Part shown: one piece after another, positions 1,572 to 51,837 of the stretch
Numbering within the stretch: the first letter of the stretch is position 1
Layout: each line of letters starts with the position of its first letter
Source: Carya illinoinensis
Taxonomy: Eukaryota; Streptophyta; Magnoliopsida; Fagales; Juglandaceae
NCBI RefSeq assembly: GCF_018687715.1
Contig: NC_056755.1
Span: 34,060,001-34,124,000 of the forward strand
Direction of reading: 5' to 3'
Length of the DNA: 64,000 bases
Notes under the pieces: generated by a model
Told to the model about the DNA's origin: nothing
The model's database searches: none
What the model saw: only the letters and a program-made list of their open reading frames with translations
Translations under genes and position numbers: made by a program

Positions 1572-1835
1572 CAGATTCTACAAGTTCGCTCGAGCGGAGG
1601 CTTTTGGCCGCTCGAGGGAATTCAGGCAGATTTAAACGCTCGACTGCCTCTCGACAGGGAGCTCGAGAGGGTTGCTGAAAAACAAAGATCACTCGAGCGG
1701 AGACATTGGCCGCTCGAGCGAAATCAGGCAGAGTCGAACGCTTGACGTGCGCTCCATAGGATGCTCGAGCGAAATCAGACAGAGTCGAATGCTCGATGTG
1801 CGCTCAACACCCCGCTCGAGCGAACATCGTATTTT
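1572..1835 (+). repeat. CTCGAG minisatellite in LTR U3
   Basis: Irregular units carry GCTCGAGCG, then TCAGGCAGA, then a CGCTCGAC-like block. They repeat about five times with degeneration. The array ends about 30 bp before the TATA box. The same unit occurs at 51548-51792, 28195-28480 and 38325-38640. Confidence 0.85.
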
Positions 1836-1866
1836 GACAGATTTTAGGTTTTCCACCGTGACACCA

Positions 1867-1874
1867 TATAAAAG
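1867..1874 (+). promoter_or_regulatory. LTR TATA box
   Basis: TATAAAAG lies downstream of the CTCGAG array in the LTR. It is the expected position for the core promoter that drives the element's genomic RNA. Assigned by motif and position only. Confidence 0.55.
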
Positions 1875-2864
1875 CAATTTTTCACTCTAGGGCCGGGAGT
1901 TTTTTGACTGGAGAACACATCTTGGGAGAGAAAAACATAGCTAGAAGGATTCAAATCATCTATTTTTGGAGAGGGAATTCCAATTATTGCACGTACGTTG
2001 GAATCATACATGAGCACGGACGAGAGAAAAGCGCTGAATCGTTCCCTTGAGCTTTTGACGACGAGTTGAGGCTGCAAGGAGGATTTTTCAGTGTTTATTT
2101 TCTTCCCATCTTCTCAGAACAATTATGGTGAATTCGTTTATGTTGAATTTCATTTCTAGCATGAGCTAAATTTTCTTCATTCTAAGAAAACGATGTAACC
2201 TATTTCCGAACTATGCTTGATTGTCTATGCTAATTTAATGCAATTCTCTCTTTGTTTATCTGATTTATTCTGAATTTATTGCTTCTAATTAACTGGCCAT
2301 TGATTAGATGATAAGTAATCTTGTGATTTGCTATCGAAAGAGGGAATCATAGGGTAGATCTTGGATATTTCAGCATAGGTAAGTATAGAGATCGAAAGAC
2401 TTGTATGAATCTATGTAGTAATTAAATCATTGGTCTTATTGCGTTCTTGATTATTGAATTTGCATATTCTTGTGTGAATTGATAACCAAGAGTCAATTCC
2501 AAAAGAGGCTTTTGGATGAATTAGAGATTTGCTAATAGACAAAAGAGATTTAAATTAAATTAGCTGGATGAGAAAAGCATAGTGAAGAAGTAGGTGAAAT
2601 CGATTTCCTAGAAGTTTTCTTCCCATTAATTTGATCTTCGAACGTCAGTGTTATTTTCTTTGCACATTTTTCTTTGAGTTGATCTAGTTTAGATTGCAAC
2701 TACAAAAATCTTAGTGATTCCTCTAGATAAAATCAAGTTTAGTATAATTTTGGTATTTGGCAAACGTAAGGTACTAATCCCTGAGGACGATACTATTCTT
2801 ATTACTTTACTATAAAACTACGATACTGTGCAATTGCAGTTTTGCACTGGTCACCTGTTTATTG

Positions 2865-3801
2865 GCGTAAGTGGATTTACGGGTGCGTGTGTATCATGAC
2901 CCCAAGCCGAGATGCGGTATTATCTCGGTGGAGCTCCTTTGGTCACTCGGGAGCGGAATAAACTGAGTGATGTCCCCTGGGTTGTCGTTGGGCGACGACG
3001 GGAGCAGGGGCTAGGGGGTGCTTGGCTACGAACGAGCCGGGTGCAAAATCGGGCATCGCTCTACGCACCGACTCCATGGCCCTTCGTTGGCGAGGGCTTT
3101 TTGGATGCTTGGCTACGAACACGCGGGGCGTGGAACTGGGCATCGCTCGTTAGGTGTCACATGCGTGGTGGTACTCTGCGGTGTGGCACTGGAGCCAGGG
3201 TGTGTGGATGACCCCTAGGGGAGGTCATGGTGCATACGGGTTAAAATGGATAATGGTTTGAGATGAATAAAGGCCAAATGTGACTTTTGGCTTGATATTT
3301 GGAAAGGTTTGTTTTTGGGCCAAATGAGTTTTTTGGCGTGTGTGGAAAATTATGTTTTATGGGTTTTGCGCATTGGCATCACTTCATGCATGTTGTTTGA
3401 GTTCTATGTGCTTTTATCTGGTGGTGTTTGGGTTTTACTTACCTGCGGTACCTTTTTTGGTTCCGTAGATTTTGGTGTAGGATTCGAGAATGAGGAGGAG
3501 GAGGCTGAGCCCGAGGATGCGGGTCTGCCGGGTTGCTGATGTTATGCTTTATAGTTTGGTTTAAAACTATATTCGTGTTTTGTAATATTTTATTTATGTA
3601 TGTTTTAAACAGCTTGTATTACGTTAAGAAAAATTCTGGTACTTAGTTATATGACTTTCGTTATCCGCTGCGTGTTTCTTCATGCACATATGTTGCTTTT
3701 TCACACACTTGGCACTCGTCGATAGGGTGGTGACCCGGGTTGTCAACATCCGGACGTCTCGATTTCCCCGTGTCCGTGCGTGGGGATTTGGGGGTGTCAC
3801 A
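2865..3801 (+). repeat. Tekay-like chromovirus LTR, 3' part only
   Basis: This is the reverse complement of the first ~900 bp of the LTR at 43364-45432. Shared blocks include GGTGCGTGTGT, the 'cttacctgcggtacc' box and the LTR terminus GGGGGTGTCACA at 3790-3801. The terminal CA is present and abuts the Athila LTR of 3802 precisely, as if a Tekay element had inserted into that LTR and then lost its 5' portion. The left junction with the Athila LTR at about 2865 is a breakpoint. Confidence 0.75.
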
Positions 3802-6583
<2,782 letters not shown>

Positions 6584-6598
6584 CACCCCCAACTAGCT
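6584..6598 (-). promoter_or_regulatory. polypurine tract of the Athila element
   Basis: On the minus strand, AAGCTAGTTGGGGGTG lies directly before the 3' LTR start TGATGAAG. This is the usual primer for plus-strand DNA synthesis. A second similar tract, AGTTGGGGGGTGG, lies at about 7334-7347. Confidence 0.7.
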
Positions 6599-7571
6599 TT
6601 TTGCTAGACTCTAGCAAATAAAGTGAACGAATTCACGCGAAGGTGAGATTTCCAACTACAATTTCAAAAGAAGTTCAAGAATCACATGCCATGAAATAGA
6701 CTTGTTGAGTTTAAGAACATTGGAGATAGATTAATATGAATTTTGTATCAACTAAGAGATTTATACACCATTTAGTTAATCAACCAGGGGAATTACATGT
6801 AACAAACAATTGAACCTAGTGGGGGAATCGGACCTATGAATGTGCGCCTACCCACACTTTCACAAGTCAGCCCTTAACACCAGTCTACCTAAAGGATTTT
6901 TTTTTTTTTTTGGATCCCTGGCTTGTCCCTTTTCTCATTTAATTCATTTTAGATTTCTTCCTAAGCCATTAGGATATGGTTCATTAGAGTCTCAAACAAT
7001 TGAAGTGTAAATCAACCAACAATCACTCGATGTAATCTTTCTAGGCCTTTCGGGGTATGTGTTGTGTGCGTTTTAGCAAAACTTTTAACATCTTTCCCTT
7101 GGTTTAACAACTAAATAAAATGGACAAGTCCCTCTTTTGACATATACTCATATTTGCACTACATTCCACATGTTCCATGACCTCAACAAATCCTTTTTTT
7201 TTTTTTAATCACTTTCCAGCGTGTAAACTTCAAGAATAAGGGATTTAATCTGCTTTCAACTCATTACTAACACTCCCCCAAAGTGGACCAAAATATGTCT
7301 AAGGCATGCAAACAGAGAAATAAATTCTCTTCCACCCCCCAACTAGATTGTAGCATTGTCCTCAATGATGCAAGAGAAATGAAAGAATTTATACAAAGGG
7401 AGCAGTTAAGGGGCAAAACAACTAAAAGAAGAACCGAAAATTCAAAGAAAAACTGAAGGAAAGAGGAAAAGGAAGTACCTGGATAGCTTTGAAAAGAATG
7501 TAGCCAAAATAAAAGATAAAAACTAAAGAACAAAAGAAGACAATGAAAAGAAATGGATAGATCAAGAACCA
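6599..7571 (-). other. Athila 3' untranslated region
   Basis: This lies between the end of the integrase reading frame and the polypurine tract. It contains poly(T) runs at about 6896-6911 and 7194-7206. It also holds a GAGGACAATG box plus a G-tract at 7371-7334 (minus), which mirrors the arrangement at 128-158 and 50485-50520. I see no envelope-like gene. A 102-residue hydrophobic frame at 7575-7267 is biased by low-complexity sequence and I do not call it. Confidence 0.55.
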
Positions 7572-8294
7572 TCAATTAGGATCAAGCAAATGTAGAGTAG
7601 ATTCCTCAGGTGCAAAGTTAGAAATAAAAGGCTTGAGCCTTTGACCATTAACCTTAAAAATGTTACCATTGAGAGGATTCATTATCTCTATAGCACCATG
7701 ATGAAAAACAGTTTGTACCACATAAGGCCCACTCCATCGAGACCTTAACTTACCAGGGAACAAGTGTAACCGAGAGTTGTACAATAACACTTTTTGATTA
7801 GACTCAAAAGTCTTACGTTGGATGTGTTTGTCATGGAAGTTCTTCATTCTTTCTTTGGACAACTTAGAGTTGTTGTAGGTATCCATCCTCAACTCATCCA
7901 ACTCAAACAACTGCAATTTTCTCACACAACCAGCTTTATCAATGTTAAAACTGCATTGCTTAATGGCCCAATACGCTCTATGTTCCAACTCTACAGGCAA
8001 ATGGCAAGCCTTACCATACACTAGTCTATATGGAGACATGCCCAAAATGGTTTTAAAGGCTGTTCTATAAGCCCACAAGGCATCAGACAATCTCAAAAAC
8101 CAATCCTTCCTGTTTGGGTTAACTGTTTTTTCAAGAATGATTTTAATCTCCCTATTTGCTAGTTCAGCTTGTCCATTGGTTTGAGGATGATAGGGAGTAG
8201 AGATTTTGTGATGGATACCATACTTCTTCATTAAGGCCGAGAAATGCTTGTTACAAAAGTGGGTGCCATTATCACTAATTATGGCTTTAGGCAT
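7572..8294 (-). pseudogene. Athila integrase, C-terminal half
   Basis: The 240-residue frame starts inside the integrase catalytic core. Near residues 6-13 is SDNGTHF with the second catalytic Asp. [10 protein letters not shown] near residues 41-50 carries the catalytic Glu. The C-terminus ends with a conserved [10 protein letters not shown] element near residue 215. It is the continuation of the frame ending at 8327. Between them lie two in-frame TAA codons at Lys positions and a 1-base loss in a T-run (about 8300-8330). The protein would join element cDNA to host DNA, but here it is split and non-functional. Confidence 0.85.
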
Positions 8295-8326
8295 GCCAAA
8301 CCTTGCAAAATGTTTTATTTCAAAAA

Positions 8327-11090
8327 TTATACAACAACTTGATGATCATTAGATTTGCAAAGGACTGCCTCAACCCACTTAGAAACATAGTCAACAGCAA
8401 GCAATATGTATAAATAGCCATAAGAAGAAGGAAATGGTCCCATAAAATCTATCCCCCAACAATCAAAAATTTCAATCACTAGTATGGGTTGCATAGGCAT
8501 TATATTTCTCCTAGTGATTCCTCCTAATTTCTGACAAGGTTCATAAGTTTTACAAAAACTAAAGGCATCTTTGAACATGGTTGGCCAATAAAATCCGCTT
8601 TGAAGAATTTTGTTCACTGTTTTGTGGGCTGAAAAATGCCCACCACAAGCTTTCGTATGGCAAAAATTTAAGGCACCAGAAATTTCATCATTGGGCACAC
8701 ACTTCCTAATGATTTGATCTGAACAATACTTGAAAAGGTAAGGATCATCATAAAAGAACGATCTCACCTCATGCATGAATTTTCGTATATCTTGAGCGCT
8801 CCAATGAGGTGTTGTTTGTCCTGTCACCAAGAAATTTACTATATTAGCAAACCAAGGCAAATTTTTAACTAACATAAGATGTTCATTAGGAAAAGAATCA
8901 AGAACAGGTGTCGGTTGTTCAGTTTCAGCAACTGTGAGCCTAGACAAATGGTCGGCTACCACATTCTCTACTCCTTTCTTGTCCGTGATGATAATATTGA
9001 ACTCATGGAGTAAAAGTATCCATCTAATCAACCTTGGTTTTGCATCTTTCTTTGTCAATAAATACTTGAGAGCTGCATGGTCAGTAAAGATGACTATAGG
9101 AGAACCAAGAATATATGCACGAAACTTCTCTAAAGCAAATACCATAGCAAGTAATTCTTTTTCAGTAGTAGAATATTTTTTTTGAGCAAAATTCAAAGTT
9201 TTACTTGCATAGTAAATGACATAAGGAAGTTTGTTCCTACGCTGTCCAATAACAGCTCCTATAGCAAAATCACTTGCATCACACATGATTTCAAAAGAAA
9301 GTGACCAATCAGGAGGTTGAAGAATAGGAGCAGTGGTTAGCAAAGTTTTAACCTGACAAAAAGCTTCTTGACACTCGGGTGTCCAATCAAATTTTACATC
9401 ATTCATCAATAGCTTACATAGAGGCTTAGAAGTAGAGCTAAAGTCTTTGATAAATCTCTTATAAAAACCCGCATGCCCAAGAAAAGATCTAATGTCTTTT
9501 ATTGACTTAGGTGTAGGAAGTTTAGAAATCAACTCAATTTTTGCTCTATCTACTTCAAGTCCTCTAGATGAAACAATATGTCCCAGAACAATGCCCTGTT
9601 GTACCATGAAATGGCACTTCTCCCAATTAAGTAGAAATTGCTTCACTTCACACCTGGCCAAAACAGCTTGTAAATTGGTTAAACAACTCTCAAATGAATC
9701 ACCAAATACAGAAAAATTATCCATAAACACTTCTAGGGTGTTCTCAATCATGTCACTAAAAATGCTAAGCATGCATCTTTGAAAAGTTGCTGGTGCATTG
9801 CATAAACCAAAAGACATTCTCCTAAAAGCAAAAGTACCAAAAGGACAAGTAAAGGTGGTCTTTTCTTGATCCTCTGGTGCTATTTCTAATTGATAGTAAC
9901 CGGAGAATCCATCTAAGAAACAATAAAAAGCATGTCCAGCAACTTTTTCTAACACTTGATCAAGAAAAGGCAAAGAAAAATGATCTCTCCTAGTGGCGGC
10001 ATTCAACTTCCTATAATCTATACACATGCGCCAACCAGTAGAAATTCTGGTGGGAATCGATTCATTTTGCTCATTTTTAACAATGGTAAGCCCAGATTTT
10101 TTTGGAGCTACATGAATAGGACTTACCCACTTGCTATCCGAGATGGGATAAATGATACCCACATCAAGCAATTTCAACACCTCACCTTTAATCACTTCCT
10201 TCATTGTGGGATTCAACCTTCTTTGCATTTCCCTAGAAGGCTTTGCATCATCTTCTAAATAAATCCTATGGGTACACTTCAAGGGACTTATACCTTTTAT
10301 ATCAGCCATTGTCCAACCAATAGATTTTTTATGCTTCTTAAGCACATCTAGCAATTTATCTTCTTGTTCACTAGTTAAGTGAGAAGAAATTACCACAGGA
10401 AAAGTGCTTTGTGGTCCTAAGAAAGCATACTTCAACTCCAATGGAAGAGGGAAGAAGTCCAAAGTTGGGGATTGCTCCTCCGAAGGCTTGAGGGTTGATG
10501 TCAATGGTGGAAGTTGCTCAAATTTTGGCCTCCATGGTGGTGTAACTTGCTTAACTATTGAGGAAACAAGAGATGAGTTATTAACATTATCAAATATTTT
10601 GAAATTTTCTTCAAATTCCTCTAAAGAATCAATAAGTTGAAAGTAATGTGCAGAATTTTCATCAAAGAAATTTTCCAGTAAATTCACTTCATGAACTTCT
10701 TCAACTTCTTGCGGTTGCCTGCAAATATTAAAAATATTTAGCTCCAAGGTCATATTTCCAAAACTCAATTTTAAAACTCCACTTCTACAATTTATGAGTG
10801 CATTAGAAGTAGCCAAGAAGGGTCTTCCTAAGATAACAGGTGCTTGGAAAGTAGAATGATTAGTCAATTGCATGTCAATTACAACAAAGTCTACTGGATA
10901 GTAGAATTTGTCTACTTGAACCAAAACATCTTCCACAACACCTCTAGGAATCTTTATAGACCTATCAGCCAACTGCAATGTGATAGAAGTAGATTTCAAC
11001 TCACCCAATCCAAGCTGAACATAAACATTATTATAAGGCAATAAGTTCACACTTGAACCTAAGTCTAATAATGCTTGGCCTCCCTATCAT
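8327..11090 (-). pseudogene. Athila protease - reverse transcriptase - RNase H - integrase N-terminus
   Basis: A 907-residue open frame runs from about 11050, with protease sequence extending up to about 11090. Order: aspartic protease (DLGSS then [14 protein letters not shown], residues ~1-105), RT (~280-520, with [11 protein letters not shown] and [14 protein letters not shown]), RNase H (~590-700, with [12 protein letters not shown] and TTEKELLA), integrase zinc region (~800-850) and WGIDFMGPF (~870, first catalytic Asp). The RT active site reads FMDNF where the family has FMDDF, so one metal-binding Asp is lost. The zinc region has Tyr for one Cys (TYEPCQ). A frameshift at about 11080 separates it from gag. 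It should supply all replication enzymes but is dead. Confidence 0.9.
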
Positions 11091-13010
11091 GCAAGCTATG
11101 GTAGGGGAACCTGGGTCCTTGTATTTGGGAGAAGTGTTGGTTTGGATAATAGCACTAACCTGCTCAGTAAGAAAAGCTTTCTTTCGCACATTCAATTTTC
11201 TTTTTACGGTGCATAAATCCTTTAAAAATTTAGCATAGGTAGGAATCTGATGAATAGCATCTAACAATAGTATATTTATCCTAACTTGCTTAAAAATTTC
11301 AAGAATTTCAACGTGATGCTTATCTTTGTGCAAAGGGGTTAACCTTTGAGGAAAAGGTGCAAGTGTAGTGCTTGGGACACTTTCAGATTTCACAGGATTA
11401 TGTGCCTCATTTTCAGAAGGAGGTTTAGAAGTGTTACCATTCTTTTCTACCTCTTGAGCTGGAATGCCAATCACCTTACCACTTCTCAAGGTTGTAATAG
11501 CTTTGACTTGCTTGACATTTGAATCTCCTGCCACACTTTGAAATTAGTGGTTTTGGCCTTGGGGATTAGGCTGAGATTGTGCAGGGAACTTCCCTTTCTC
11601 TTGAGCACTCATGGTTGTAGTCAACCTTGTGACTGACCCTCGAATCTCAGCAATGGCTTGTGAATTTTGACTGTTAATAGCAGCTTGGCTTTGCATGAAT
11701 TGCTGAAAATTGGTGGACAGCTGCTGGAAGTTGGTGGATAATTGCTGGAAATTGTCTTCAAGGTTCTTTTTCTGAGCTGGGACCATCTGGTTGGCATATT
11801 GAGATGGTCCTGGACCTCCTGGAGTAGTGTAGGATACAATTTGTGAAGGACCAGTTATGTTGGGTGCAGGTAAAGCAACTTGATCACCTCTCCAACTGAA
11901 ATTAGGGTGATTTCTCCATCCCGAATTGTAGGTATTGGAATAAGGACCTGAAAAAGATTTAGCAACCATATTAACATCATTAGATTGATCTAAAAGAAAT
12001 TCTTTAAAAGCTGGAATGGTTGGGCAATCATTAGTTGAATGCCCTTGGCCCTCACAAATATTACAGCTCAAGGTAATCTCAGGTACAGCTTGTACTTCAT
12101 TCACTTTCTTCAGTTCTATGGTTTCTAATTTCTTAGAAATCATAGCCAACCTAGCATTCAAATCATCTACTTCTCTCAGATTATATTTCCCAACCCTTGA
12201 AATTGTCCTTGAACTTTCCGACCTATCATGAACATCAGATTTATCCCATGATTGTGCATTTTCGATAATCAAAATATTCAAAAGCTTCCTCAGGTTCTTT
12301 GTTAAAAAACGCTCCATTACATATGGTCTCCACAAATTGTCTCATTTTTTGTTGCAACCCCTCATAAAAAAAACTAATGGCCCTCCAATTCTCATATCTA
12401 TGATGAGGACATGCATTTAAAAGGTCTTTGAATCGTCCCAACAATGATAAAATGTTTCGACATCCTTTTGGCCAAAATTCATGATCTGTCTTTTCAAGGC
12501 ATTGGTTCTATGTATGGGAAAAAATTTCTTTAAAAATTCAGTTTGCATTTCTTGCCAAGCCCCAATGGATCTTGGTCTTAAGGAATTCTACCATGTCTTA
12601 GCCTTGTCTTTTAAAATAAAAGGAAACGGTTTCAATCTTATGACCTCATCAGTGCATGTTCTATCCATGAATGTGGAACACACTTATTCAAACTCTTTGA
12701 TATGCAAATAGGGGTTTTCAGATTCCATACCATGAAAGTGTGGTAACAATGGAATCATCCTGGGTTTGAAATTAAAAGCATTTGCATTAATTGGTAAAAT
12801 GATGCAAAAAGGTGTGCTAGTCCTAACAGGCTGAAGATATTCTCTAAGAGTCCTGTTTGGATTCTCCACTTCCCTATCATGATGCTCATTTTCAGCCATG
12901 ATGCTATCAGTGTCTGATGATGATTCAACATAAGATGATGCAGAGCTAAAAGATATCAATGATTCTGTCCTAAACAGTCGAGATGTATGGTCTCTAGACC
13001 AACCAGTCAT
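11031..13010 (-). pseudogene. Athila gag, fragmented
   Basis: Three frames (13010-12684, 12335-11544, 11534-11031) cover the capsid/nucleocapsid protein. The N-terminus has RTLREYLQPVRTST and FHGMESENPYLH, typical of Athila gag. A CCHC-type knuckle, CNICEGQGHSTNDC, lies at ~12047-12088, followed by a Gln/Asn-rich tail with two FQQLSTN repeats. Stops and frameshifts at about 12685, 12440-12335 and 11540 break it. The last frame runs into the protease but shifts at the active site (about 11080). Gag would package the RNA; no intact product is possible here. Confidence 0.82.
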
Positions 13011-13151
13011 ACAAATAAGAGTAGATAATCAAAGAACATGAAAAATAAACAGAGAGAAGGGAAAAGGATTAGATGTCACCCAGGCTGTGAAAAGGTTAAT
13101 AGCTCTACAATGTCCTCTCAGCAGTAGAGGAATGCTCTAATAAGCACCAGT

Positions 13152-13171
13152 TGTCCCCGGCAACGGTGCCA
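13152..13171 (-). promoter_or_regulatory. primer binding site (tRNA-Asp type)
   Basis: Read on the minus strand it is TGGCACCGTTGCCGGGGA, two bases inside the 5' LTR end (GGAGTCA then AG). It matches the 3' end of plant tRNA-Asp except one C to T or A-type change in GGCGCC. Athila elements typically use this primer, which supports the lineage call. Confidence 0.85.
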
Positions 13172-13177
13172 AAAACT

Positions 13178-15989
<2,812 letters not shown>

Positions 15990-26672: not shown

Positions 26673-26673
26673 T

Positions 26674-28480: not shown

Positions 28481-28527
28481 CAAATCACTTACAATGTAGG
28501 GTTTTGAACGCCTCATTTGATGGGAAC

Positions 28528-28535
28528 TATAAATA
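28528..28535 (+). promoter_or_regulatory. copia LTR TATA box
   Basis: TATAAATA lies downstream of the minisatellite and upstream of a transcribed-looking leader. The matching site in the right LTR is 38698-38705. Confidence 0.6.
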
Positions 28536-29203: not shown

Positions 29204-30499
29204 ATGGATAGGTCTCAATCACTCACATCTCCACCATATTTTGATGGAAACAACTATGCTTATTGGAAAGTGAGAATGAGAGCATTCTTGAAATCTGTGG
29301 ATGAATGAGTATGGGTTTCCATAACAAATGGTTGGATAGAACCAGAGGTTCTTGTTGACGGAGTGCGGACTCCCAAAAGTGTAGAAAATTACTCTAGGGA
29401 TGAAATAAGTGAGTGTGGTTGGAATAGCAAAGGGCTTAGTGTGATCTTTATGGCTGTATCCCAGGAAGAATTCAAACGGATATCAATGTGTCAAAATTGC
29501 AAGGAAGCTTGGGATATTCTTGAGATTACCCATGAAGGTACCAAGGCTGTAAAGAATTCTAAGCTTCAAATGTTGACTACTAGTTTCGAAGAGTCGAGAA
29601 TGAAGGATGATGAAACATTTGATGCTTTCTATGCCAAACTAAATAATATCGTCAACTCTCGCTTTAATCTAGGAGATAAAATTCCTGAGAATGGAGTTGT
29701 GAGAAAAGTTCTCAGATCTCTTCCTGAGAGATTTTGTCCTAAGGTTACGGCTATTGAGGAAAGCAAAGATGTGGATACTATGAGAATTGAAGAATTGGTG
29801 GGCTCCCTCCAAACATATGAACATACTCTTCCAATGGACAAAAAGCATAAGTCCATAGCAGTCAATACTGTTAGAGAGGAGTCAGATGAGTCATCCGATG
29901 ATTTGGCTATGAGTGACAAAGAAATAGCATTTTATGCTAAGAAATTCAGGAAAATGTTTGTGGCTAGAAATAAAAAGAATCAGAGCCTAGAGAAGAAAAA
30001 GTTTGAAAGATACAACAGAGGCTCAAGTTCAGGAAACAAGGATAGAAACTCTGAGAAGCACACTAGAACAAATAAAGATAAGGGTCAGTCCAGTGTGCAG
30101 TGTCATGAATGCCATGGTTTTGGACACATTCGCCTGGAATGTCCAAACTACAAAAAGGCAAAAGAAAGAGCAAAAATGGCATCCCTAAGTGAGAGTGAAT
30201 CAGAGTCAAGTGATTCATCGGGGAACTCTTCCCCAAAAAGAAATCTGAATTACATGGCATTCACTGTCTCGGTAGATAGCAAGAGTCAACACAGTGAAAA
30301 TGTGTCGGATGATGAGAGCAAGTCTGGAAATGAATCTGAATATGAAGATGAGCTGCAAGAAGTTTATGAGAAGTTATACAAGGAATGTGTTAAATTGAGG
30401 AAACTCAACAAAGTGCACATTAAAGAGATAGACTTCATTAAAAGAGAAAATGAAGAGCTTCAAGGCAAATTAACTGAGGCCATTGTTCTAGCTGATTAG
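29204..30499 (+). pseudogene. copia gag (one internal stop)
   Basis: The ATG at 29204 opens MDRSQSLTSPPYFDGNNY, the usual copia gag start. A TGA at 29306-29308, probably an old Trp codon, interrupts it, after which the frame stays open to a TAG at 30497-30499. The gag UBN2-type region follows (about residues 50-190), then a CCHC knuckle CHECHGFGHIRLEC near residue 300 and an acidic Ser-rich, coiled-coil tail. Gag forms the particle and binds genomic RNA. The same frame continues into pol across the TAG with no frameshift. Confidence 0.85.
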
Positions 30500-30505
30500 T
30501 TTAAA

Positions 30506-33500
30506 ATGAAGAAGGTGTTTCTAGAAGATGAGTTAAAAACTCATGAAAGTGAAATAACCTTGCTAAAAGAAAAGCTGAAATCCTTCTCCAGCGGGAATCA
30601 AAAGTTGGATGAAATCCTAAGTTTTGGAAAGTCCCCTAGTGACAAGAGTGGACTAGGATATGATGCAGTAAACTTTGAAACTGCAACCACCTCAAAGGTC
30701 TCCCACAAAAAGGAGAAGAAGACTGTGTTTGTTTGTGAATCAGCAGTTAATGGAAAGACTAACCCATCTGACAAGGGCAAGAAATCATCTCATGTCCAAA
30801 TGGGTGTTCTGTCTCATGTGAAACCAAAAACTAGAAATGCAAGACCCATTTGTCATCACTGTGGTAAAACAGGTGATGTTGTAACGGAGTGTTTTAAGCT
30901 GAAAAGATACATCGGGTATGAACATGCACCTTCTCAAAGCAAAAGTATGCACCCTCCAAACATGGGTAAACGTCTCATAACTGCTCCTAAGTATACCTCT
31001 TCATTCAGGAGACAAAGAGATAGCAAAGAAAACTATATGTGTCATAATTGTGGTAGGGCTGGCCACATCCGACCAAATTGCTATGAGCTTAGGAAGAATC
31101 ACATGAAAAATGGAGATAGACAACCAAGAAGAGGGCATCTAAATCTTTGGAGTCAAGTCATGGCCTTAACTAGGCAAAATGAGATGCTGAATGTCAAGTT
31201 AGACCAACTGTCAACTACCAAAAAGGGTGGTTCTCCAAAAGTTATAAAGATGTGGGTCAGAACTGGAGAAAGAAACACATGTCATGTGGCACACATTGCT
31301 AGTGGGTGCTCACGTCACATGTCAGGTGATAGAAGTTTGTTTAAAACTATTGAGGAATACAAGTGTGGAACAGTAACTTTTGGAGATGGTGGAAAAGCTG
31401 ATATAATTGGAAAAGGTGAAATTGATATACCTGGACTACCTGTCTTGAGGGAAGTACTGTTTGTTGATGGATTAAAAGCAAATCTCCTCAGCATAAGTAA
31501 AATGTGTGACAATGGTGCTGAGGTTTGCTTTTCAAGAGAAAAATGCATTGTTTCAGATAATGATGGAAACTGCATGATGCAGGGAACGAGGACATCTGAC
31601 AATTGTTATGGCATCACTCCTAATTTTCAATATAGTTGCAACAGTGCTAAGAGTGAGGCAACAGACCTGTGGCACCAAAGACTTGGACATGTGAATCATA
31701 AAAATCTGTCCAAGATTGCCAAGAAAGATATGGTGATAGGGTTAGCTGAGCTGGGTAAAGTGGAGACTCCTGTGTGTGGGTCATGTCAATTGGGAAAACA
31801 AGTCAGAACAGCTCACAAGAAAACGACGGCTATCCTAATTGAACAACCTTTGGAGTTATTGCACATAGATCTTATGGGACCCTCTAGAACTGAAAGCTTG
31901 GGGGGAAAGAGATACATACTGGTAATGGTGGATGACTTCACCAGATATTCATGGGTAGAATTTTTGAGAGAGAAAGCTGAAGCTCCTAATGTGATTAAAA
32001 TCTTGTGCAAGAAGCTTCAAAATGAGCAAGGAAAGGTAATAGTCAGAATTAGGAGCGATCATGGAAGAGAATTTAACAATTCAAATCTTGAGAGTTTTTG
32101 TGATGAAGAGGGCATCAGTCAAGAATTTTCTGCCCCTATCACTCCACAGCAAAATGGAGTGGTTGAAAGAAAGAATAGGGTGATTCAAGAAATGGCTCGA
32201 GTCATGATACACAGTAAGAATGTTCCTACCCATTTCTGGGGAGAAGCTGTGAACACAGCATGTCATATTATGAATAGAGTCTATCCGAGACCAAACACTT
32301 CCAAAACACCATATGAACTGTGGAAAGGAAAGAAACCAAATGTGAAGTACTTCAAGGTGTTTGGAAGCCAATGCTACATTTTGAGAGACAGGGAAAACTT
32401 AGCTAAGTTTGACCCCAAAAGTGATGAAGGGATTTTTCTTGGATACTCTAGAAACAGTCGTGCGTATAGATGCTACAATCTGCACACTAGAACTGTAATA
32501 GAATCCATAAATGTGGTAGTGAATGATGCTCCTGAAGAGAAATTGAGTAAAGATGAGCCATCTCACTTACCAAGTGGAATTGAAAGAGAAGATAGTGATG
32601 CAGTAAGGGAAAACTTGGAGTCCGCATCAAATGAAAAGATAAAATGCCAAAAGGAGCCTTCTTCAAGAGTAAAGTTGAATCATCCTCAAGAAAATATTAT
32701 AGGAAACCTAGATGAAGGGATGAGACTAAGAAGAAAAGTGATAAATCAATTGGCTCACTCAAGTTACATCTCACAAATTGAGCCAAAAAGGGTTGAAGAA
32801 GCTTTAAGTGACGAAAATTGGTTAAATGCGATGCATGATGAAATAAATCAATTTGTGAGGAACAATGTGTGGTATTTGGTGCCAAGACCAGAAAGTCACA
32901 ATGTGGTAGGCACAAAATGGATTTTCAAGAATAAGTCTGATGAGAATGGAATCATCGTGCGAAATAAAGCAAGAGTGGTTGCTCAAGGGTATGCCCAGAT
33001 GGAGGGTATAGACTTCAATGAGACTTTTGCTCCGGTTGCCAGACTTGAGTCCATTCGAATTTTGTTGAGCATCGCTTGTCATATGTGCTTCAAGCTCTAT
33101 AAAATGGATGTCAAGAGTGCTTTTCTGAATGGAGTTCTTCAAGAAGAAGTATATGTTGAACAACCAAAGGGTTTCAAGGATCCAAAATATCCTAGTCATG
33201 TCTATAGGCTGAAGAAAGCTCTTTATGGCCTAAAACAGGCTCCCAGAGCTTGGTATGACAGACTAACTTCCTATTTAGAGAACCACAAGTTTTTGAGAGG
33301 AAGTGTGGATAGGACATTATTCATCAGAAAAGCTGGAGAAGACATAACAATTGCTCAAATCTATGTGGATGACATTGTTTTTGGATCTTCCATTGACACT
33401 CTAGCTCTTGAGTTTGCTGATGAGATGAATAATGAATTTGAGATGAGCATGGTAGGTGAACTAACCTTTTTCTTGGGACTCCAAGTAAAACAGTTGAATG

Positions 33501-34309
33501 ATGGGTTATTCATATCTCAATCCAAATATGCAAAAGATCTAATCACAAAATTTGGATTAGATGGCAAGAGCCATGCTAGAACTCCCATGAGCACGAGTGT
33601 TAAGCTAAGCGCTGATCTGTCAGGCAAGGATGTTGAGCAATCCTTGTATAGGAGCATGATTGGGAGTTTGCTGTATCTCATTGCAAGTAGACCAGACATT
33701 GCCTTTAGTGTTGGGGTGTGTGCTAGATTTCAAGCCAATCCAAAAGAATCACATTTGATAGCTGTCAAACGCATACTTCGTTATGTGAATGAGACGATTA
33801 ACTATGGGATTTGGTATTCTAGAGACTCTAACACTGAACTTGCAGGCTATTTAGATGTTGATTGGGCAGGTAATGCAAATGATGGGAAAAGCACCTCTGG
33901 TGGGTGTTTCTATGTTGGGACGAATTTGGTAGCCTGGATGAGTAAGAAACAAAACTCAATTTCCATGTCCACGGCTGAGGCTGAATACATTACTGCAGGG
34001 AGTTGTTGTTGCACGCAATTGTTGTGGATGAAGCAAATGCTATGTGACTATGGCATTGCTGAAGGTGTGATGAGCGTCTATTGTGACAATACCAGTGCTA
34101 TTAACATTTCAAAAAATCATGTCCAACACTCTAGGACCAAGCACATTGACATTAGGCACCATCTCATTCGGGAGCTTGTGAAAACAAAGGTTGTGACACT
34201 TGAGTATGTTCCCACCGAACATCAACTAGCCGACCTTTTTACAAAACCCTTGGATAAGCTTCGTTTTGAACTTCTTAGAAAGGCTATTGGGATTTGTGCT
34301 TTGACATAA
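30506..34309 (+). pseudogene. copia pol: knuckles, protease, integrase, RT, RNase H
   Basis: 1267 residues without interruption. Two further zinc knuckles lie at ~116-129 and ~177-190. The protease site reads [10 protein letters not shown] at ~263 where the family has DSG, so the catalytic Asp is replaced by Ala. Integrase has the HHCC region (~387-425), then the DDE residues in LHIDLMGP (~452), RSDHGREF (~515) and NGVVERKN (~552). RT has [12 protein letters not shown] (~864), [12 protein letters not shown] and YVDD (~953). RNase H has [18 protein letters not shown] (~1150) and KHIDIRHH (~1213). It is in frame with gag across one TAG. RT and integrase look chemically competent; loss of the protease Asp and the two stops make the copy non-autonomous. 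Confidence 0.9.
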
Positions 34310-36055
34310 GCCCTGAAACATGCATAACATGCATTACATGTTTTTCATGCACTTTCATTTTTTTTTTTTGTTGTTGATGTTTGGGTTGCATGTGTTAGTT
34401 GTTTAGTTTTATTGTCATTGATTGCTGCCCCTACATGCACTCCATGATTGCGCTATATAATAGTGGAGTTGTTAATTCTAAAATCTAGGTGCATGTATCT
34501 TTTGAGATTTGTATCATATAACTATGTTTTACAAAGGTTTGGAACATGAGTATCTCGTGTAATCTGTGACTGGCATCACACACTTCACTCCAAACTCGGT
34601 CAATTGACATTTCACCACTTGTGAGTTTATTGGGGAGGCAATCAAAAGTGGTCGGAAGCTCTATCTTCATACAGAATTGACCACGGGCTAGATGACCTCA
34701 TCATGGTTCGTTTGTAAAAACAAAGAAAAAAAAAAAGGTGGTGAAAAACAGAATAAGTTTTCTGTTTTCTTGAACATATTGAAACAAGTATTTAAACAGA
34801 AAGATTTAGGTCCTAGTAGCATTGGGTTTGACTTTCTGTACCTTGAATGAGCTTCCCAAGCACTTATGGTTTCATGTTCAGCCCAACCCCGCTCACGCCT
34901 TACGGTTGAAATTTCTTGATTGAGCAAGGACCGCTTTAAACACGCACGTCTATATTACTTGTGATACTTTGTTTTTAACTGTGTGTTTTATGGGAATATG
35001 ATGCTCTTCTACATTTGATATGTACTCTTGGTGTAAAAATTGACATTCACAGTATTTGTCCAAGTCATGTGAGTGTTGTGTGCTTCAAAACTGGGCAAAA
35101 TGTGATTTTCTGGTGGTCTCGCTCGACCCTCGCTAGACTCTGCTCGAGCGAAAGCCGCTCGAGGGTTTTAAGTTCGCTCGAACGAACGTCTGTTATAAAA
35201 CTCGAGCGCCGCTCGAGCCGCTCGAGCACAGTGGCCTCTTTTCTCCCATTCCGTGCGATTTTCTTCCACTTTTCTCAAATTTCTTCGTTTAATCTTGTGC
35301 TTTCCTTCCAAAATCATCTCCAAATCAAGGTAAAGCCCTTTCTCTTTTGTATTTTCATAATTTGGTGATTTTATTTTGGATGTTTTCCGTGTGTTGTGCG
35401 AATATGGGTTTCGAATTCTGTTTTTGAGTTTTTTCTTCGATTGTTTTCCATTTATTTTGGTTTATTGAGGCTATTGTGGAGCCATTGTTGGGTTTTGAGT
35501 GTATTTAGGAGGTTTTTGGTACTTCCATGGGCCTATACCTGAGTTTCTCACTTGGATGCACTCAAAGTGTTTGGTAAAATGCCTCAATGAAGTTTGTTTT
35601 CTCTTTTTCATCATGCATTGGCATAGCGTTGTTACCATGTCTATTTCATGTCTATCCTAGGTTTGGGACATCGTCTAAACTAAGATTGCATTTAGTTTGA
35701 AGGTGTTTTAGTTTAGAAGTGGCATTGGCTTGCAAATGGCTTGGCATTGGTTTGCACTTGGGTTGGCATTGGCTTGCAAATGGCTTTGCATGTGGGTTGT
35801 CATTGCATAAGAGTCATGCACATGGGTTGGCATTAGCATGCATGTTGATCATGCACATGAGTTGGCATTGGCATGCATATGGGACACTTTGAACTAGGCA
35901 TTTATCATTGTTTTGAAAAATGAAGAGCGGCATAGGGCATGCACCAAGTCCTACATTGTCGGTTGGCATTGTTGTGTCAGCATGCATGCATTCATCACTT
36001 CTTTGCATTGCCTTAGCCTTGTCTAATGTCTTTGACTCTGTCTACAGCCGAAACC
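34310..36055 (+). other. long spacer between copia pol and downstream ORF
   Basis: Non-coding by eye. It holds a CTCGAG cluster at 35119-35232 (GCTCGAGCGAA and GCCGCTCGAG, no regular period) like the LTR minisatellites. It also holds a degenerate 'ttggcattggcttgcaaatgg' repeat at about 35715-35880. Short frames here lack recognisable features. A long region between pol and the polypurine tract is usual for Sireviruses. Confidence 0.6.
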
Positions 36056-37147
36056 ATGTCTCAACGTGTTCGTCCTCGCCAAAACCCTCCTGTACCCGCT
36101 CAAGCTCACTTCCATAGTGCCAGAGCCCAGGAGTTATATTCTCAGAACTTCTCGCATCGTACTCCCATAGTCGAGCGTGAAGTGGCCTTAGGTGAGCTTA
36201 CCGAGACTATCATTCCCCGCATTTTTGAGTCTCGTTAGTGGCAAGCATTGACCACTGGTCATCCCACTCCTTCTGTGGAGTTGGTTAGGGAGTTTTACTC
36301 CAATATTCATGACGTGTCTGTTGATGACTCGTTTGAAGTCAGTCTTAGGAACGTTGTTTTTCGAGTAACTCCAAGCATGATAGCGACTCTGCTAAATGCT
36401 CCTCGTGTGTCCTATCCCGAGTTTCCCTACTCATGGACATCTCCTCCCAGTCCACAAGTCATTGCTAGTTGTCTTTGTGGTCGAACTAGTAGTTGGGAAG
36501 GGACAACCCCTATTTCAACTACTCGTTTTACCCCTGATCACCTCATTCTCAGTAGGATTGTTCTTACGAACTTAGATCCTACTGGTCATAATAGTGATGT
36601 GGGTCTTGACCGTGCCCTTCTGCTGTATGCCTTGATCAATGGAGTCTCCATTGATCTAGGAAGTCTTTTGTGTCGCGTTATAATTGAGGCGTATCGGTCC
36701 TCCAAAACACGGACTGGTTTGCCATTACCGTGTTTAATCACCCGACTAGCCCTCTCCCAGTCTGTTGCTTTACATCCTCAGGAGCCTAGAATTGCACTTA
36801 AGGCCCCTATTGGTCATAGGACGGTCCAGCTGAGTCGTGCTCACACAACTCCACACCCTCTCCGTGTTGAGCACCCTCCCGCTCCCTCCTCTCAGCCTTC
36901 GAGCTCCCGACCATTTAGTTCTCAATCGTCTACCTCGGCCCCATCCAGCTCTCAGCCATCTTCCTCAGCCCCCGGTTCGTCGGAGCCCAGTCTTCAGCAG
37001 GTACTTGAGTATCTAGCTCGCCTTGACGCCCGGTTCGACAGCCTTGAGGTGAAAGTTGATAACCTGCAGCAACTTGTGACTCAACACTTCAACGACATCG
37101 AGAGGCAGCTCAATGAGGATGATGAGGATGCCGATGGTGATGATTGA
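36056..37147 (+). pseudogene. extra ORF after copia pol, 'putative plant transposon protein' domain
   Basis: The ATG at 36056 gives MSQRVRPRQNPP. A TAG at 36236-36238 interrupts it and the same frame continues to 37147 (364 codons in all). The body has VELVREFYSN, FRVTPSMIATLLNAP, RALLLYALINGVSIDLG and LPLPCLITRLA, which I recognise as the PF20167-like domain of many plant retroelement ORFs. A Pro/Ser-rich linker (residues ~280-305) and a C-terminal coiled coil with an acidic end follow. It occupies the place of the envelope-like ORF of Sireviruses, but I see no signal peptide or membrane segment, so envelope function is not supported. Its role is unknown. Confidence 0.7.
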
Positions 37148-37167: not shown

Positions 37168-37180
37168 AAAAAGGGGGAGA
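37168..37180 (+). promoter_or_regulatory. copia polypurine tract
   Basis: AAAAAGGGGGAGA lies 20 bp after the extra ORF. It is followed by TATTGTTGAGGG, which resembles an LTR start, and by a second GTTGAGGGGGAG. The true LTR start (TGTTGAGAGAAAAA) is not here. Confidence 0.75.
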
Positions 37181-37247
37181 TATTGTTGAGGGAGAGTAGT
37201 ACAGTAGTAATGTTGAGGGGGAGTAGTACACAAAATGCTTTTAAATG

Positions 37248-38214: not shown

Positions 38215-39304
38215 TGTTGAGAGAAAAATGAGCGTATTGGCATATTCTTGTGAAAACCTGTGTAAAATAGTGTTGTAACAAGTGTTGTTGCGGAAAGGCT
38301 TGAAGATTGGTCAAAGAAGGCGACTTCGCTCGACGGAGCGCTCGAGCGAACTTGGGCAGATTGCACCGCTCGACTTTCGCTCGACATACAGCTCGAGCGA
38401 ACTCAGACAGATTCAACCACTCGACCCTCGCTCGATACTGAGCTCGAGCGAACCCAGGCAGAGTGTGTCGCTCGACCCTCGCTCGACACTGAGCTCGAGC
38501 GAACCTAGGCAGAGTGTGTCGCTCGACCCTTGCTCGACAGTGAGCTCGAGCGAACTCAGGCAGAGTCGACCGCTCGATACTTGCTCGACAAGTCGCTCGA
38601 GCGAACTTTAGCAGATTGTTTCGCTCGACACTTCGCTCGAGCCAATGTTCCAGATCACTTACAATGTAGGGTTTTGAACGCCTCATTTGATGGGAACTAT
38701 AAATAGAACAGGTTAACTTCTGTTATAGGTGTGGAGAATCAGAGCAAAAACCCTAAGGGTCTCCAAGAACTTTTTAGAGCAAACTCTCCACCATTTGTTT
38801 GATTCTCTCTTGGATAAAAATTTCTCCACCACAACTCATTCAAAATCAACTCTTACTTGAGTCCATTGAAGTGGACATTTTTGTTAGCCGGAAGAGTCCG
38901 GAGCTGCCGTTGATGCAGAGATCGAGAGGTTCTCGTGGGAAACTATAGGAAGGTCGGAGTTCCGACACTACATGCGTGTAGAGATCGAGTGGGTAACTTG
39001 TGGTGTTGCAAGCCAAGTTTAGCTACTACAAAGGTTTTGTGAGTGTCTCTAAATTGGTTGTAACAAACTAAAATTTCTATAGTGGATTTGAGGTGGTGCC
39101 TTACACCCGGAGTGGTTTTAGATTTTGAAGATATTCTTCAAACGAGTTTTTACTCCGTGATCAAAATCATGTGTTGATTATTTTTGTTATTTGATTCATT
39201 TATTAACTGCTTGTTTGGCTAATTTTTAAAATACCATAAAAATTAGATTACACCTATTCACCCCCCCTCTAGGTGTAGTGTTGGGTAAAACCACTGCTTT
39301 TTCA
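38215..39304 (+). repeat. right copia LTR (3' LTR or solo LTR)
   Basis: TGTTGAGAG...GCTTTTTCA, 1090 bp. Flanked by R on both sides: GATCT on the left, TATCT on the right, then the continuation CAATCACGTGA. On its own this looks like a solo LTR at the original insertion site. It contains the 51-bp CTCGAG array (38325-38640, one unit more than the 5' LTR) and a TATA box at 38698. Confidence 0.88.
38325..38640 (+). repeat. CTCGAG minisatellite in right copia LTR
   Basis: Six to seven units of ~51 bp with GAGCTCGAGCGAAC and CAGGCAGAGT cores. One extra unit relative to 28195-28480, showing copy-number change since the LTRs were identical. Confidence 0.9.
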
Positions 39305-40010: not shown

Positions 40011-40011
40011 T

Positions 40012-50206: not shown

Positions 50207-50400
50207 TTTTCTTGTCACCACAACCTTTGACCCCCTTTAAGAAAACAAAAACAAAAACCAAAGACCAACACCACATAACAAGAAACAAAAAGAAACCAGC
50301 CTGCAAAAACATAACTAAATAAATAAAAACAAGCAAACAAGCTCAAATAACAACTTTACTTAACATAATTTTTAAAACACAACCATAAAAACATTCTGGT
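50207..50400 (-). other. Tekay 5' untranslated remnant
   Basis: A-rich on the plus strand, with no frame of interest. It ends near 50400, where Athila 3' sequence begins in the opposite orientation. No tRNA-Met-type PBS is found before the junction. Confidence 0.5.
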
Positions 50401-51547
50401 ACTACCTACGGGACATGTGGTTTTTCATGTTAATTGTTTGTTTTGCTTGCTTAGCTCTGTGCACTTTCTTTTCTTTCATTCGAATCATTGAGGACTATGT
50501 CTCTCACTAGTTGGGGGGTAGCATGTGTGCACAGTTTCAAAAAATAAATAAATAAATAAATAAATAAGATTTGTGAAATTTGAGCATCTTGGTGGAGTAG
50601 TTGAGTGGGATCATTTGTGAAGATTTATTTTCAAGCTTAAACATAGAGCATGATTTTTGATGCATCATATTTTGTTGATATGTGACTTGAAACACTGGGA
50701 TGTTATGCTTATTGAGATGAAACTTGATAAAATTTGTGTAGAACAAAAGGCAAATTTTGAAGGACATTTTGCACATGCTTACGCTTGTAGTATTCCTTAT
50801 TTACCATTCATTGATTTAACACTGGAGAAGTAAACTGCAAGACTACTGAGCCATGAAAAAAAAAAAGAGGATTTGAAAAGAAAAGAAAAAAAAGAAAAAA
50901 AAAAGAGAGAAAAGGAATAAACGAAACTTAGTGAACTTTCCTAAGTAAAAAGGGCTAGAAACAGTTACCCAAGACTTTGGGGGTTGAGTGTCCAACCTTT
51001 AAAAACAGAGCTAGCGTGAAAACTGCTAGACCCTTGGGCTTTGAGGTAGTTAGAATCAGCAATGATTAATCTTAAGGTTGAAAAATCCTATGGCAAATCA
51101 TGGCTAGTAATGAGGAACACACAACCGATCTAGCTCCACACACACATTTGAGTTCTGAGACATTTGTCTTAATTATATGTGAAAGATTGTTAAGATAGTC
51201 TTGGTGGGTATAACCCTTGGGAGTTGAGTAGTAACGTGTCACTTTTGTGAGAATTCAGAATTGTGTTTGATTGTTTTTGTTTGAATTTCGATCTTTATGC
51301 AATATTCATCTCAATTAATTTTCACTATTTTGCTCAAGGATTAGCAAAATGCTAGTTGGGGGGTGTGATTGAGTTGAATTATTGCATTTTTAATGCTTTT
51401 GGAACCAATATATATTAATTCTTTCATTACTTTATCATTGGTTTTGTATGGAAGAATGAATAAATCAAAGTTTTGATTTTAATTGATTAAAAACATGAAT
51501 TTCTGCTCTAATTTTATCAAATGCCAATTAATATGGATTATGGTACA

Positions 51548-51792
51548 GTTCGCTCGAGCGGCGGCTTCTGGCCGCTCGAGCGAAGTCAGGCAGATTCAAA
51601 CGCTCGACTTCCGCTCGACAGTGGGCTCGAGCGAGATGCGGGAAAAGAGATCGCTCGAGCGGAGGCATTTGGTCGCTCGAGCGAATTCAGGCAGAGTCGA
51701 ACGCTCGATGTTCGCTCGACAGGCTGCTCGAGCGAACTTAGGCAGAGTCGAACGCTCGATGTTCGCTCGACACTATGCTCGAGCGAATATCG
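51548..51792 (+). repeat. CTCGAG minisatellite in Athila-type LTR
   Basis: GCTCGAGCGAA, TCAGGCAGAGTCGAACGCT and TTCGCTCGACA blocks repeat about five times. It is better preserved than at 1572-1835 and nearly the same unit as in the copia LTRs. A TATATATAT box at 51829-51837 follows within 40 bp. Confidence 0.88.
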
Positions 51793-51828
51793 CATTTTTA
51801 CAGATCAGGGTTCATTCCGCCATCAGAG

Positions 51829-51837
51829 TATATATAT
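51829..51837 (+). promoter_or_regulatory. Athila-type LTR TATA box
   Basis: TATATATAT lies 37 bp after the minisatellite, in the same relative place as 1867 and 28528. Motif-based only. Confidence 0.45.

Follow-up and report, generated by a model that had tools for sequence, protein, structure and literature searches.

Retroelements of the window

The window, by which we mean the whole 64-kb stretch of Carya illinoinensis DNA analysed here, contains a copia element of Sirevirus type, two Athila-type LTRs (A1 and A2) and a Ty3-type element with Athila-like features (element A), as listed in Table 1. The pol order of element A, with RT-RNaseH followed by integrase, is that of Ty3 elements, and element A served as our reference for naming A1 and A2 Athila-type. 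Its TTTTTGGCACCGTTGCCGGGGA resembles the primer site of its presumed lineage and is a candidate tRNA-Asp-type PBS. Diaspora and Calypso are stated to use tRNA-Asp in PMC1142308. The PPT/LTR junction of A2 equals that of element A save for one mismatch and one gap, and the A1 junction resembles it weakly (score 20 versus 44). Next to A1 are a 3′ linker and the polypurine tract AAGTTTGGGGG; the linker motif ATGAGGACATTG...AAGTTTGGGGGTG at 126 resembles those of element A (minus strand, 7364) and A2 (50489); a GAGGAC linker motif is common to all three. Of A1 and A2, the window yielded only 3′ linker and LTR, the Pfam scan having covered 16 of its 22 listed frames. The LTRs of element A are without an array and hold a single CTCGAG, at 15705.

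Table 1. Positions of the retroelement features and palindromic arrays in the window
Feature	Position	Strand	Remarks
A1, Athila-type LTR (3′ LTR or remnant)	1542..2853, right end approximate	+	starts TATTTGATGAC (TA, not TG)
Array in A1	1584..1825	+	3 full 51-bp units and edge palindromes; 3 dyads, 0 exact
TATA box of A1	1867..1872	+	46 bases past last CTCGAG
Element A, Ty3-type, Athila-like features	3802..15989	-	primer-site-like TTTTTGGCACCGTTGCCGGGGA
Left copia LTR, Sirevirus-type	28085..29134	+	runs TGTTGAGAG...TTTTTCA; C-rich block CACCCCCCCTCTAGGTG near end; ATTGGTATCAGAGT (PBS region) next
Array in left copia LTR	28195..28471	+	51-bp units, 6 dyads
TATA box, left copia LTR	28528..28533	+	56 bases past last CTCGAG
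Copia gag	29309..30499	+	PF14223
Copia pol	30500..34309	+	PF13976, PF00665, PF25597, PF07727
Looser half-site cluster, copia linker	35119..35232	+	upstream of 3′ ORF
Copia 3′ ORF	36239..37147	+	PF20167 (putative plant transposon protein)
Two AGGGGGAG polypurine octamers	37172..37223	+	starts 37172 and 37216; sole two on + strand of window
Right copia LTR	38215..39304	+	downstream part 97% identical to left over 664 bp
Array in right copia LTR	38326..38641	+	51-bp units, 7 dyads; one unit above left LTR
TATA box, right copia LTR	38698..38703	+	56 bases past last CTCGAG
A2, Athila-type LTR (3′ LTR or remnant)	51364..52672, right end approximate	+	PPT/LTR junction TAGCAAAATGCTAGTTGGGGGG/TGTGAT
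Array in A2	51547..51788	+	51-bp units; 3/3 dyads exact
TATA-like box of A2	51829..51838	+	45 bases past last CTCGAG

The copia element carries copia-type gag-pol domains (PF14223, PF07727, PF00665 and others). Likenesses to the Sireviruses, as these are described in PMC2829016, lie in the PBS junction, the polypurine tracts and the C-rich block near the LTR end. The Sirevirus 5′ LTR/PBS junction, CA/ATTGG with TATCAGAGC, occurs here as TTTTTCA/ATTGGTATCAGAGT, differing in the final base; the C-rich integrase signal is present as CACCCCCCCTCTAGGTG in both copia LTRs; and the several AGGGGGAG tracts of the Sirevirus linker, averaging four (PMC2829016), are represented by two copies. A Sirevirus terminal PPT is followed by AT/TG and the 3′ LTR, whereas the PPT at 37172 is followed by ATAT and TGTTGAG. 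This difference says little on family, because the copia copy is rearranged and a copy of the left flank parts the right LTR from the polypurine tracts. Self-BLAST delimits a copia repeat from 27120/37248 onwards, which would make the LTR roughly 2 kb long. This reading was rejected in favour of the LTRs in Table 1, because the unbroken flank copy crosses the point of LTR insertion (27011) and TGTTGAGAG opens each LTR.

Homology of the 51-bp unit across superfamilies

Our analysis revealed arrays of a 51-bp unit in four LTR promoters, two of copia and two of Athila type, as the initial annotation had proposed. The TRF rows jointly span 1582–1824, 28196–28470, 38326–38640 and 51550–51787, close to the positions claimed there; the periods are 51 and 101/102/153 bp. 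The distance from array to TATA box, given there as 30–60 bp, was found to be 45–56 bp in all four LTRs when measured from the last CTCGAG, and the orientation and pre-TATA position of the array are identical in the copia and the Athila-type LTRs. The units carry the dyad CGCTCGA-N8-TCGAGCG. All 19 dyads detected at up to two mismatches (10 of them exact) fall within the four arrays, and the rest of the 64-kb window holds none. When scored against a unit template, 15 of the 17 units used reached 37–46 and the two terminal copia units 32–33; the best non-array 51-mers of the window scored 26 on the plus and 25 on the minus strand. The CpG o/e ratio was 1.33–1.60 in the arrays versus 0.24 in copia's own pol. 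The arrays are not the sole CpG-rich stretches of the window, making up, together with the linker cluster, 5 of 18; this was counted against transfer of the array between superfamilies.

The data support homology of the unit between copia and Athila-type arrays, beyond CTCGAG itself. Self-BLAST joins the arrays across superfamilies, for instance 38391–38605 with 51574–51787 (74% over 218 bp, E 5e-30), and the A1 and A2 arrays are 85% identical over 261 bp. When all bases apart from the motif hexamers were shuffled, the real score was never attained in 500 rounds for any of the six pairings of the four arrays. Between the superfamily consensuses, 17 of the 28 spacer columns agree, whereas 10,000 permutations gave 6.8 on average and 16 at most. 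A likeness through CTCGAG alone, which the initial annotation had named as grounds for abandoning its reading, is ruled out by both tests (0/500 and 0/10,000). Convergence, in which both families would have evolved clusters of one transcription-factor palindrome, draws on the shortness of the core hexamers and on the different palindromic motifs of diverse Sirevirus LTRs described in PMC2829016, but has to accommodate the equal 51-bp period, motif order and N8 spacer as well as the spacer columns and shuffles just given. The matching spacers would need to belong to the binding site, and we strongly disfavour convergence as very improbable.

No significant similarity was found between copia and Athila-type LTRs outside the array. 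An early reading that the likeness extends to the TATA box was dropped: in 12 tests, 17–48 of 500 shuffles were as good for A2 and 78–246 of 500 for A1 (lowest 3.4%, uncorrected). Nesting is heavy in this region, and the copied flank separates the 3′ LTR of copia from its PPT, a setting in which the Athila "LTRs" could be copia LTR fragments, as the initial annotation had allowed, or misjoined sequence. Such an artefact is the least credible explanation: neither the A1 nor the A2 flanks match the copia LTRs significantly, the A2 junction is that of element A, and independent proteins, including P0005 from pecan, carry the array within A1-type flanks. Our observations support that the array-bearing LTRs A1 and A2 are not copia LTR fragments.

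Identity between copia and Athila units averages 70% and rises to 86%; within the left and right copia LTRs it is 70% and 73%. Athila units are more alike mutually (mean 80%) than to copia units, which was also counted against transfer. In the best unit tree, the comparison envisaged by the initial annotation, Athila and copia units are mixed in two subtypes (support 85/90, dropping to 68/92 when units are not realigned), and of 200 bootstrap trees 4% unite the Athila units in a single clade. A separate Athila clade, however, is compatible with the AU test (p 0.245; p 0.278 without the terminal copia units). Intermixing of the two sets is supported but not proven.

Relation to Sirevirus repeated motifs

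The repeated motifs (RM) of Sireviruses are described by Bousios et al. 2010 (PMC2829016) as palindromic dyads present in many copies in the upper LTR half, where they form a CpG-rich block; the TATA box follows this island at a mean distance of 37 bp. Arrays of palindromes preceding the TATA box, together with a motif cluster upstream of the 3′ ORF (pre-ENV), are a hallmark of the group, and RM are called Sirevirus-specific and missing from a classic copia set (PMC2829016). The copia arrays of the window are of this description, with many CpG-rich palindromic dyads shortly before the TATA box and extra copies before the 3′ ORF. These extra copies are the looser cluster at 35119–35232, which corresponds to the pre-ENV cluster (PMC2829016). 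The cluster, already reported by the initial annotation, proved real: it beat 500 of 500 spacer shuffles against both copia arrays. Against the Athila arrays it behaved like shuffled sequence, with 278 of 500 and 170 of 500 shuffles equally good, so no distinguishable match links it to them. Because pre-TATA arrays and pre-ORF copies are already a published Sirevirus hallmark, the copia half of the finding, including this cluster, is of a known kind. The initial annotation overlooked this precedent, and the new part is the unit common to copia and Athila.

Two differences separate the window unit from RM as described in PMC2829016. It is a regular tandem unit of 51 bp with the core CGCTCGA/TCGAGCG, whereas 12 of the 13 published motifs have a CGG-CCG core (the exception being Tnd-1), and this was counted against our preferred reading. 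In addition, the unit also occurs in the Athila-type (Ty3) LTRs A1 and A2, unlike RM as a Sirevirus-only feature. Published Sirevirus motifs themselves differ in sequence between species (PMC2829016). In maize, the LTR palindromes of Sireviruses are small-RNA hotspots according to PMC5311732; the palindrome-rich LTR regulatory region is alike here, while sequence and host differ and the present case is known from sequence alone. The tandem repeats of Retand-type elements (PMC11963269) are likewise arrays in Ty3 elements, but they are found after pol and ahead of the 3′ LTR instead of in the LTR promoter, and they are described as family-specific. Judged by title and abstract opening, no report of an LTR array common to copia and Ty3 was found among the matches listed, most subscription journals lying outside the search. 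When the unit was searched as literature text, no title among the matches listed concerned plant retrotransposons.

Transfer, capture or inheritance of the array

LTR regulatory regions are usually viewed as family-private. On balance, we consider it somewhat probable that the array is a promoter module of the Sirevirus RM kind passed between copia and Athila-type LTRs by recombination. The module would consist of the 51-bp units with their dyad, directly upstream of the LTR TATA box, and the array or a multi-unit piece would have been transferred between Sirevirus-type copia and Athila-type Ty3 LTRs, either through template switching between co-packaged RNAs or through LTR copies recombining ectopically or undergoing gene conversion. 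The template-switching route assumes that copia and Ty3 RNAs are packaged together. Gain and loss of units would have followed, probably with more LTR recombination within the array. As a predicted binding-site cluster, the array would set LTR transcription, and its hairpins are possible small-RNA sources by prediction. A Sirevirus is the putative donor, since arrays of this sort are known from the literature as a Sirevirus trait, the window copia has a pre-ORF cluster, and element A is without an array. LTR swapping in soybean reportedly stays within one superfamily. PMC6317226 and PMC3601003 raise the possibility that some copia lineages arose as chimeras through ancient recombination, and that LTRs took part in a recombination event; those cases deal with the coding domains of copia lineages, and with LTRs of retroviruses versus Metaviridae, not with a promoter array common to plant copia and Ty3 elements.

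The initial annotation had read the array as a promoter module exchanged between elements or a host sequence captured by both. Homology, position, orientation and the lack of copia/Athila likeness outside the array bear out this reading, but do not tell exchange from capture. Independent capture of a host minisatellite or promoter cluster by copia and Athila LTRs would account for a similarity limited to the array, and is helped by the putative nature of either direction of transfer. Under capture, though, orientation and TATA distance must coincide twice, and the window holds no non-array dyad and no non-array 51-mer scoring above 26 (plus strand) or 25 (minus strand) against the unit template. 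Moreover, the four array-bearing database proteins found (P0001, P0002, P0004 and P0005) all align into A1 or A2 flanks, a weak test that covered a protein database and non-plant collections. We regard capture as unlikely and infer transfer instead. The unit pattern occurred at one viral-contig locus (L001) and four bacterial loci in genome contigs (L002–L005), none with an array; the dyad pattern gave a single match in viral contigs (L006), also without an array; and copia and Ty3 RT pieces found no relatives in viral contigs.

Downstream of the array, A1 and A2 show weak significant similarity in global alignment (unmatched by any of 1000 dinucleotide shuffles at either 120 or 250 bp), which overturned an impression from local BLAST and local scores that they share nothing outside it. 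The array common to A1 and A2 may therefore be inherited and constrained, not exchanged. Extended to both superfamilies, vertical inheritance under constraint would mean that selection preserved the array as an ancient part of the LTR, its flanks having diverged past recognition. Since the A1 and A2 arrays are 85% identical and their flanks only weakly similar, slower change of the array is possible; P0004 matches A1 at 86% across the array-containing stretch and 66% downstream, and the CpG columns of copia units vary less than the others (14/132 versus 83/429 cells). Those of Athila units, however, are no better conserved (14/96 versus 26/210 cells), Sirevirus motifs of other species differ in sequence (PMC2829016), element A in the same window is without an array, and between copia and Athila the array would have had to persist since before the superfamily split. 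Inheritance of this depth appears decidedly improbable.

If the array is common to copia and Ty3 elements, a single host regulator and a single silencing trigger could act on both superfamilies; if the transfer we prefer is true, palindromic arrays would be exchange points between LTRs. We tentatively suggest, as a possibility somewhat short of probable, that the arrays are mobile modules acting as recombination sites for the swapping of whole U3 halves, and that unrelated superfamilies of one host thereby share an upstream regulatory code, and possibly a small-RNA target, with the rest of the LTR distinct. Modular promoter evolution, a general idea, would become testable through the number of LTR chimeras whose joint falls inside the array, and through the action of one factor or small-RNA set on both superfamilies.

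One public protein, a translated LTR, looks like a natural A1/A2 chimera joined inside the array. Residues 1–30 of P0002 match A2 (27/30; E 3e-16) and residues 100–180 match A1 (E 2e-29), and among the matches listed the other Athila LTR has none to residues 1–18 or 100–180. An Athila LTR chimera joined in the array is supported by P0002 but not proven; misassembly is possible because the source is a single 571-nt contig and short-read assemblies misjoin at arrays. The remaining proteins, P0001, P0004 and P0005, represent A1-type LTRs. Relative to A1, P0002 and P0005 are without one 17-residue (51-bp) unit.

Arrays of a 51-bp unit in copia and Athila-type LTRs

The initial annotation had placed arrays of a 51-bp unit in two Athila-type LTRs (A1 and A2) and in both LTRs of a Ty1/copia element, and the TRF coordinates (rows combined, see table) bore this out, with higher-order periods of 101, 102 and 153 bp. 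All arrays have the unit skeleton GCTCGAGCGAA-.TCAGGCAGA.T-....-CGCTCGA-...-CGCTCGACA. Across each unit boundary, the closing half-site of the preceding unit and the opening one of the following unit make up the dyad CGCTCGA-N8-TCGAGCG, which occurs 19 times in the window at no more than two mismatches (10 exact), always inside the four arrays (A1, left copia, right copia, A2: 3, 6, 7, 3; all three in A1 inexact).

Coordinates of the features in the window (nt)
Feature	Coordinates	Strand	Remark
A1 LTR	from 1542		array-bearing
A1 array	1582-1824
Element A	3802-15989	minus	Athila-type reference
160-bp tandem repeat	22001-22500		3.2 copies; also registers at 80-bp period
Left copia LTR	28085-29134
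Left copia array	28196-28470
gag	29309-30499		copia element
pol	30500-34309		copia element
3' ORF with PF20167	36239-37147		copia element
Right copia LTR	38215-39304
Right copia array	38326-38640
A2 LTR	51364 onward		array-bearing
A2 array	51550-51787
DUF4216 and DUF4218 frames	62483-63999	minus	PF13952, PF13960

Copia and Athila units proved to be homologous beyond CTCGAG. When everything but the motif hexamers was shuffled, no shuffle out of 500 scored as high as the real arrays in any of the six array pairings, and the copia and Athila unit consensuses agree in 40 of 51 columns and in 17 of 28 spacer columns, against a chance mean of 6.8 and maximum of 16 (10,000 permutations). Outside the arrays, no significant similarity between copia and Athila LTRs was detected in 12 tests of 500 dinucleotide shuffles each (17-48 shuffles equally good for A2, 78-246 for A1), which argues against the possibility that the Athila LTRs are copia LTR fragments. 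The array is common to both in position, orientation and homology. A1 and A2, with arrays 85% identical over 261 bp, keep a weak similarity downstream (0/1000 shuffles equally good at 120 and 250 bp, 3/1000 at 60 bp, 2/1000 at 400 bp; 14/1000 over the LTRs' final 150 bp) and show none upstream (154/1000 and 105/1000).

The arrays have a CpG observed/expected ratio of 1.33-1.60, and a looser cluster of related half-sites in the copia linker, at 35119-35232, one of 1.79, compared with 0.62 for the whole window and 0.24 for copia pol; these five make up 5 of the 18 CpG-rich stretches under the criterion used. CpG columns were less variable than other columns in copia units (14/132 vs 83/429 cells), not in Athila units (14/96 vs 26/210), and 9 of 14 CpG changes were C>T or G>A in either set. 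Of six pieces folded as RNA, four exceeded shuffled sequence in stability by a clear margin (z -4.6, -3.7, -2.9, -2.5); the excess was weaker for the second copia piece (z -2.0; 7/200 shuffles equally good) and not convincing for the looser cluster (z -1.6; 14/200).

Elements carrying the arrays

The non-coding features of the copia element fit the Sirevirus description by Bousios et al. (2010; PMC2829016): a PBS junction CA/ATTGG with TATCAGAG, AGGGGGAG octamers at 37172 and 37216, a C-rich block ahead of the LTR end, and palindromes followed by a TATA box in the LTR. Its array belongs to a known kind, the repeated motif of Sireviruses, and has an unusual core. Unlike that description, the right LTR of this copy does not directly follow the PPT: a copied stretch of left flank about 1 kb long (37248-38214) intervenes. 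This arrangement points to unequal recombination that followed the insertion, or to an assembly that joined two haplotypes. Downstream of the array the two LTRs are 97% identical over 664 bp. The segments concerned are 26905-28084, 37248-38214, 39305-39467 and 41976-42802; related flank copies that have no LTR are those at 26937-27110 and 41976-42802.

Element A has a pol of Ty3 order (PF00078, PF17917/PF17919, PF17921, PF00665) and the primer-site region TTTTTGGCACCGTTGCCGGGGA. No pol was recognised for A1 or A2 in the 16 of 22 window frames of at least 150 aa that were scanned, and their Athila label therefore rests on junction and linker features. Compared with element A, these non-coding features point to Athila-type LTRs: the A2 junction (TAGCAAAATGCTAGTTGGGGGG followed by TGTGAT) differs by one mismatch and one gap, that of A1 resembles it weakly, and all three have the linker motif GAGGAC...GTTTGGGGG/GTTGGGGGG. 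The LTRs of element A lack the array and hold a single CTCGAG, at 15705. The A2 linker and LTR (50200-52672) seemingly interrupt another Ty3 element, element B (minus strand, 43364-54291), and A2 adjoins a shortened copy of the element B LTR at 52672; A1 likewise adjoins a related LTR fragment at 2858.

Unit tree and database relatives

For the unit comparison, 17 of 20 scored rows were taken, leaving out low-scoring 28170, the divergent A2 half-unit 51625 and the looser-cluster row. Athila and copia units are on average 70% identical (maximum 86%), compared with 70% and 73% inside the left and right copia LTRs and 80% among Athila units. The best IQ-TREE tree has two subtypes (support 85/90; 68/92 without realignment), one with four Athila units and copia 28374/38544, the other with two Athila units and the remaining copia units. 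Along the arrays, units of the second subtype come before those of the first in copia and Athila alike; the exception is the divergent terminal copia unit 28425/38595, which lies after first-subtype units. Copia and Athila units thus intermix in the best tree, and a single Athila clade appears in only 4% of 200 bootstrap trees, yet the AU test did not reject such a clade (p 0.245, or 0.278 once the two terminal copia units were left out). Over 51 columns, we regard the mixing as suggestive only.

A unit of 51 bp is 17 codons long, so that reading frames can run through the arrays without a stop; long ones lie at 38198-38722 (-) and 51483-52019 (+). Such repetitive ORFs are probably spurious, with relatives in protein databases. 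Searches with translated arrays, in which 1/434, 2/150 and 3/191 candidates passed (the three including the query itself), yielded five proteins, P0001-P0005. P0001, P0004 and P0005 (source name Carya illinoinensis) align along A1 in and beyond the array. P0002 (180 residues, a single 571-nt contig, source 'ena') matches A2 over residues 1-30 (27/30, E 3e-16) and A1 over residues 100-180 (E 2e-29), switching near residue 46, within the array; it looks like a natural A2/A1 chimera, with misassembly in the repeat as a possible alternative. P0002 and P0005 have one 17-residue unit fewer than A1, and hence unit number differs between copies. P0003 (Carya illinoinensis I3760_05G158500), an NAD-epimerase-type gene model, has no array; its C-terminal 28 residues match the A2 LTR frame 51933-52016 (27/28 identical): either a piece of LTR serves as the terminal exon or the annotation is wrong there. 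These matches make pecan or another member of the Juglandaceae the probable host. Six pattern-matched loci from viral and bacterial collections contained no array, with one match per locus.

Array history and possible function

The most economical history would be recombination that brought a Sirevirus-type array into an Athila LTR, followed by diversification and further recombination among Athila LTRs; the alternative to such exchange would be a double capture. We infer a Sirevirus donor because the array is a published Sirevirus trait (PMC2829016), because this copia element has both LTR array and pre-ORF cluster, and because element A lacks the array. That paper calls repeated motifs of this kind Sirevirus-specific, against which the unit in Athila-type LTRs is new; within the limits of our searches, no report of such a unit in Athila-type LTRs was found. 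The arrays may be clusters of host-factor binding sites setting LTR transcription, a role proposed, not demonstrated, for Sirevirus motifs in PMC2829016. Hairpins from the arrays may also be a source of silencing small RNAs, which PMC5311732 states of the palindromes of maize Sireviruses.

Elsewhere in the window, the 160-bp repeat probably consists of two diverged halves, given its 80-bp period. The DUF4216 and DUF4218 frames are of a kind that goes with CACTA-type DNA transposons.
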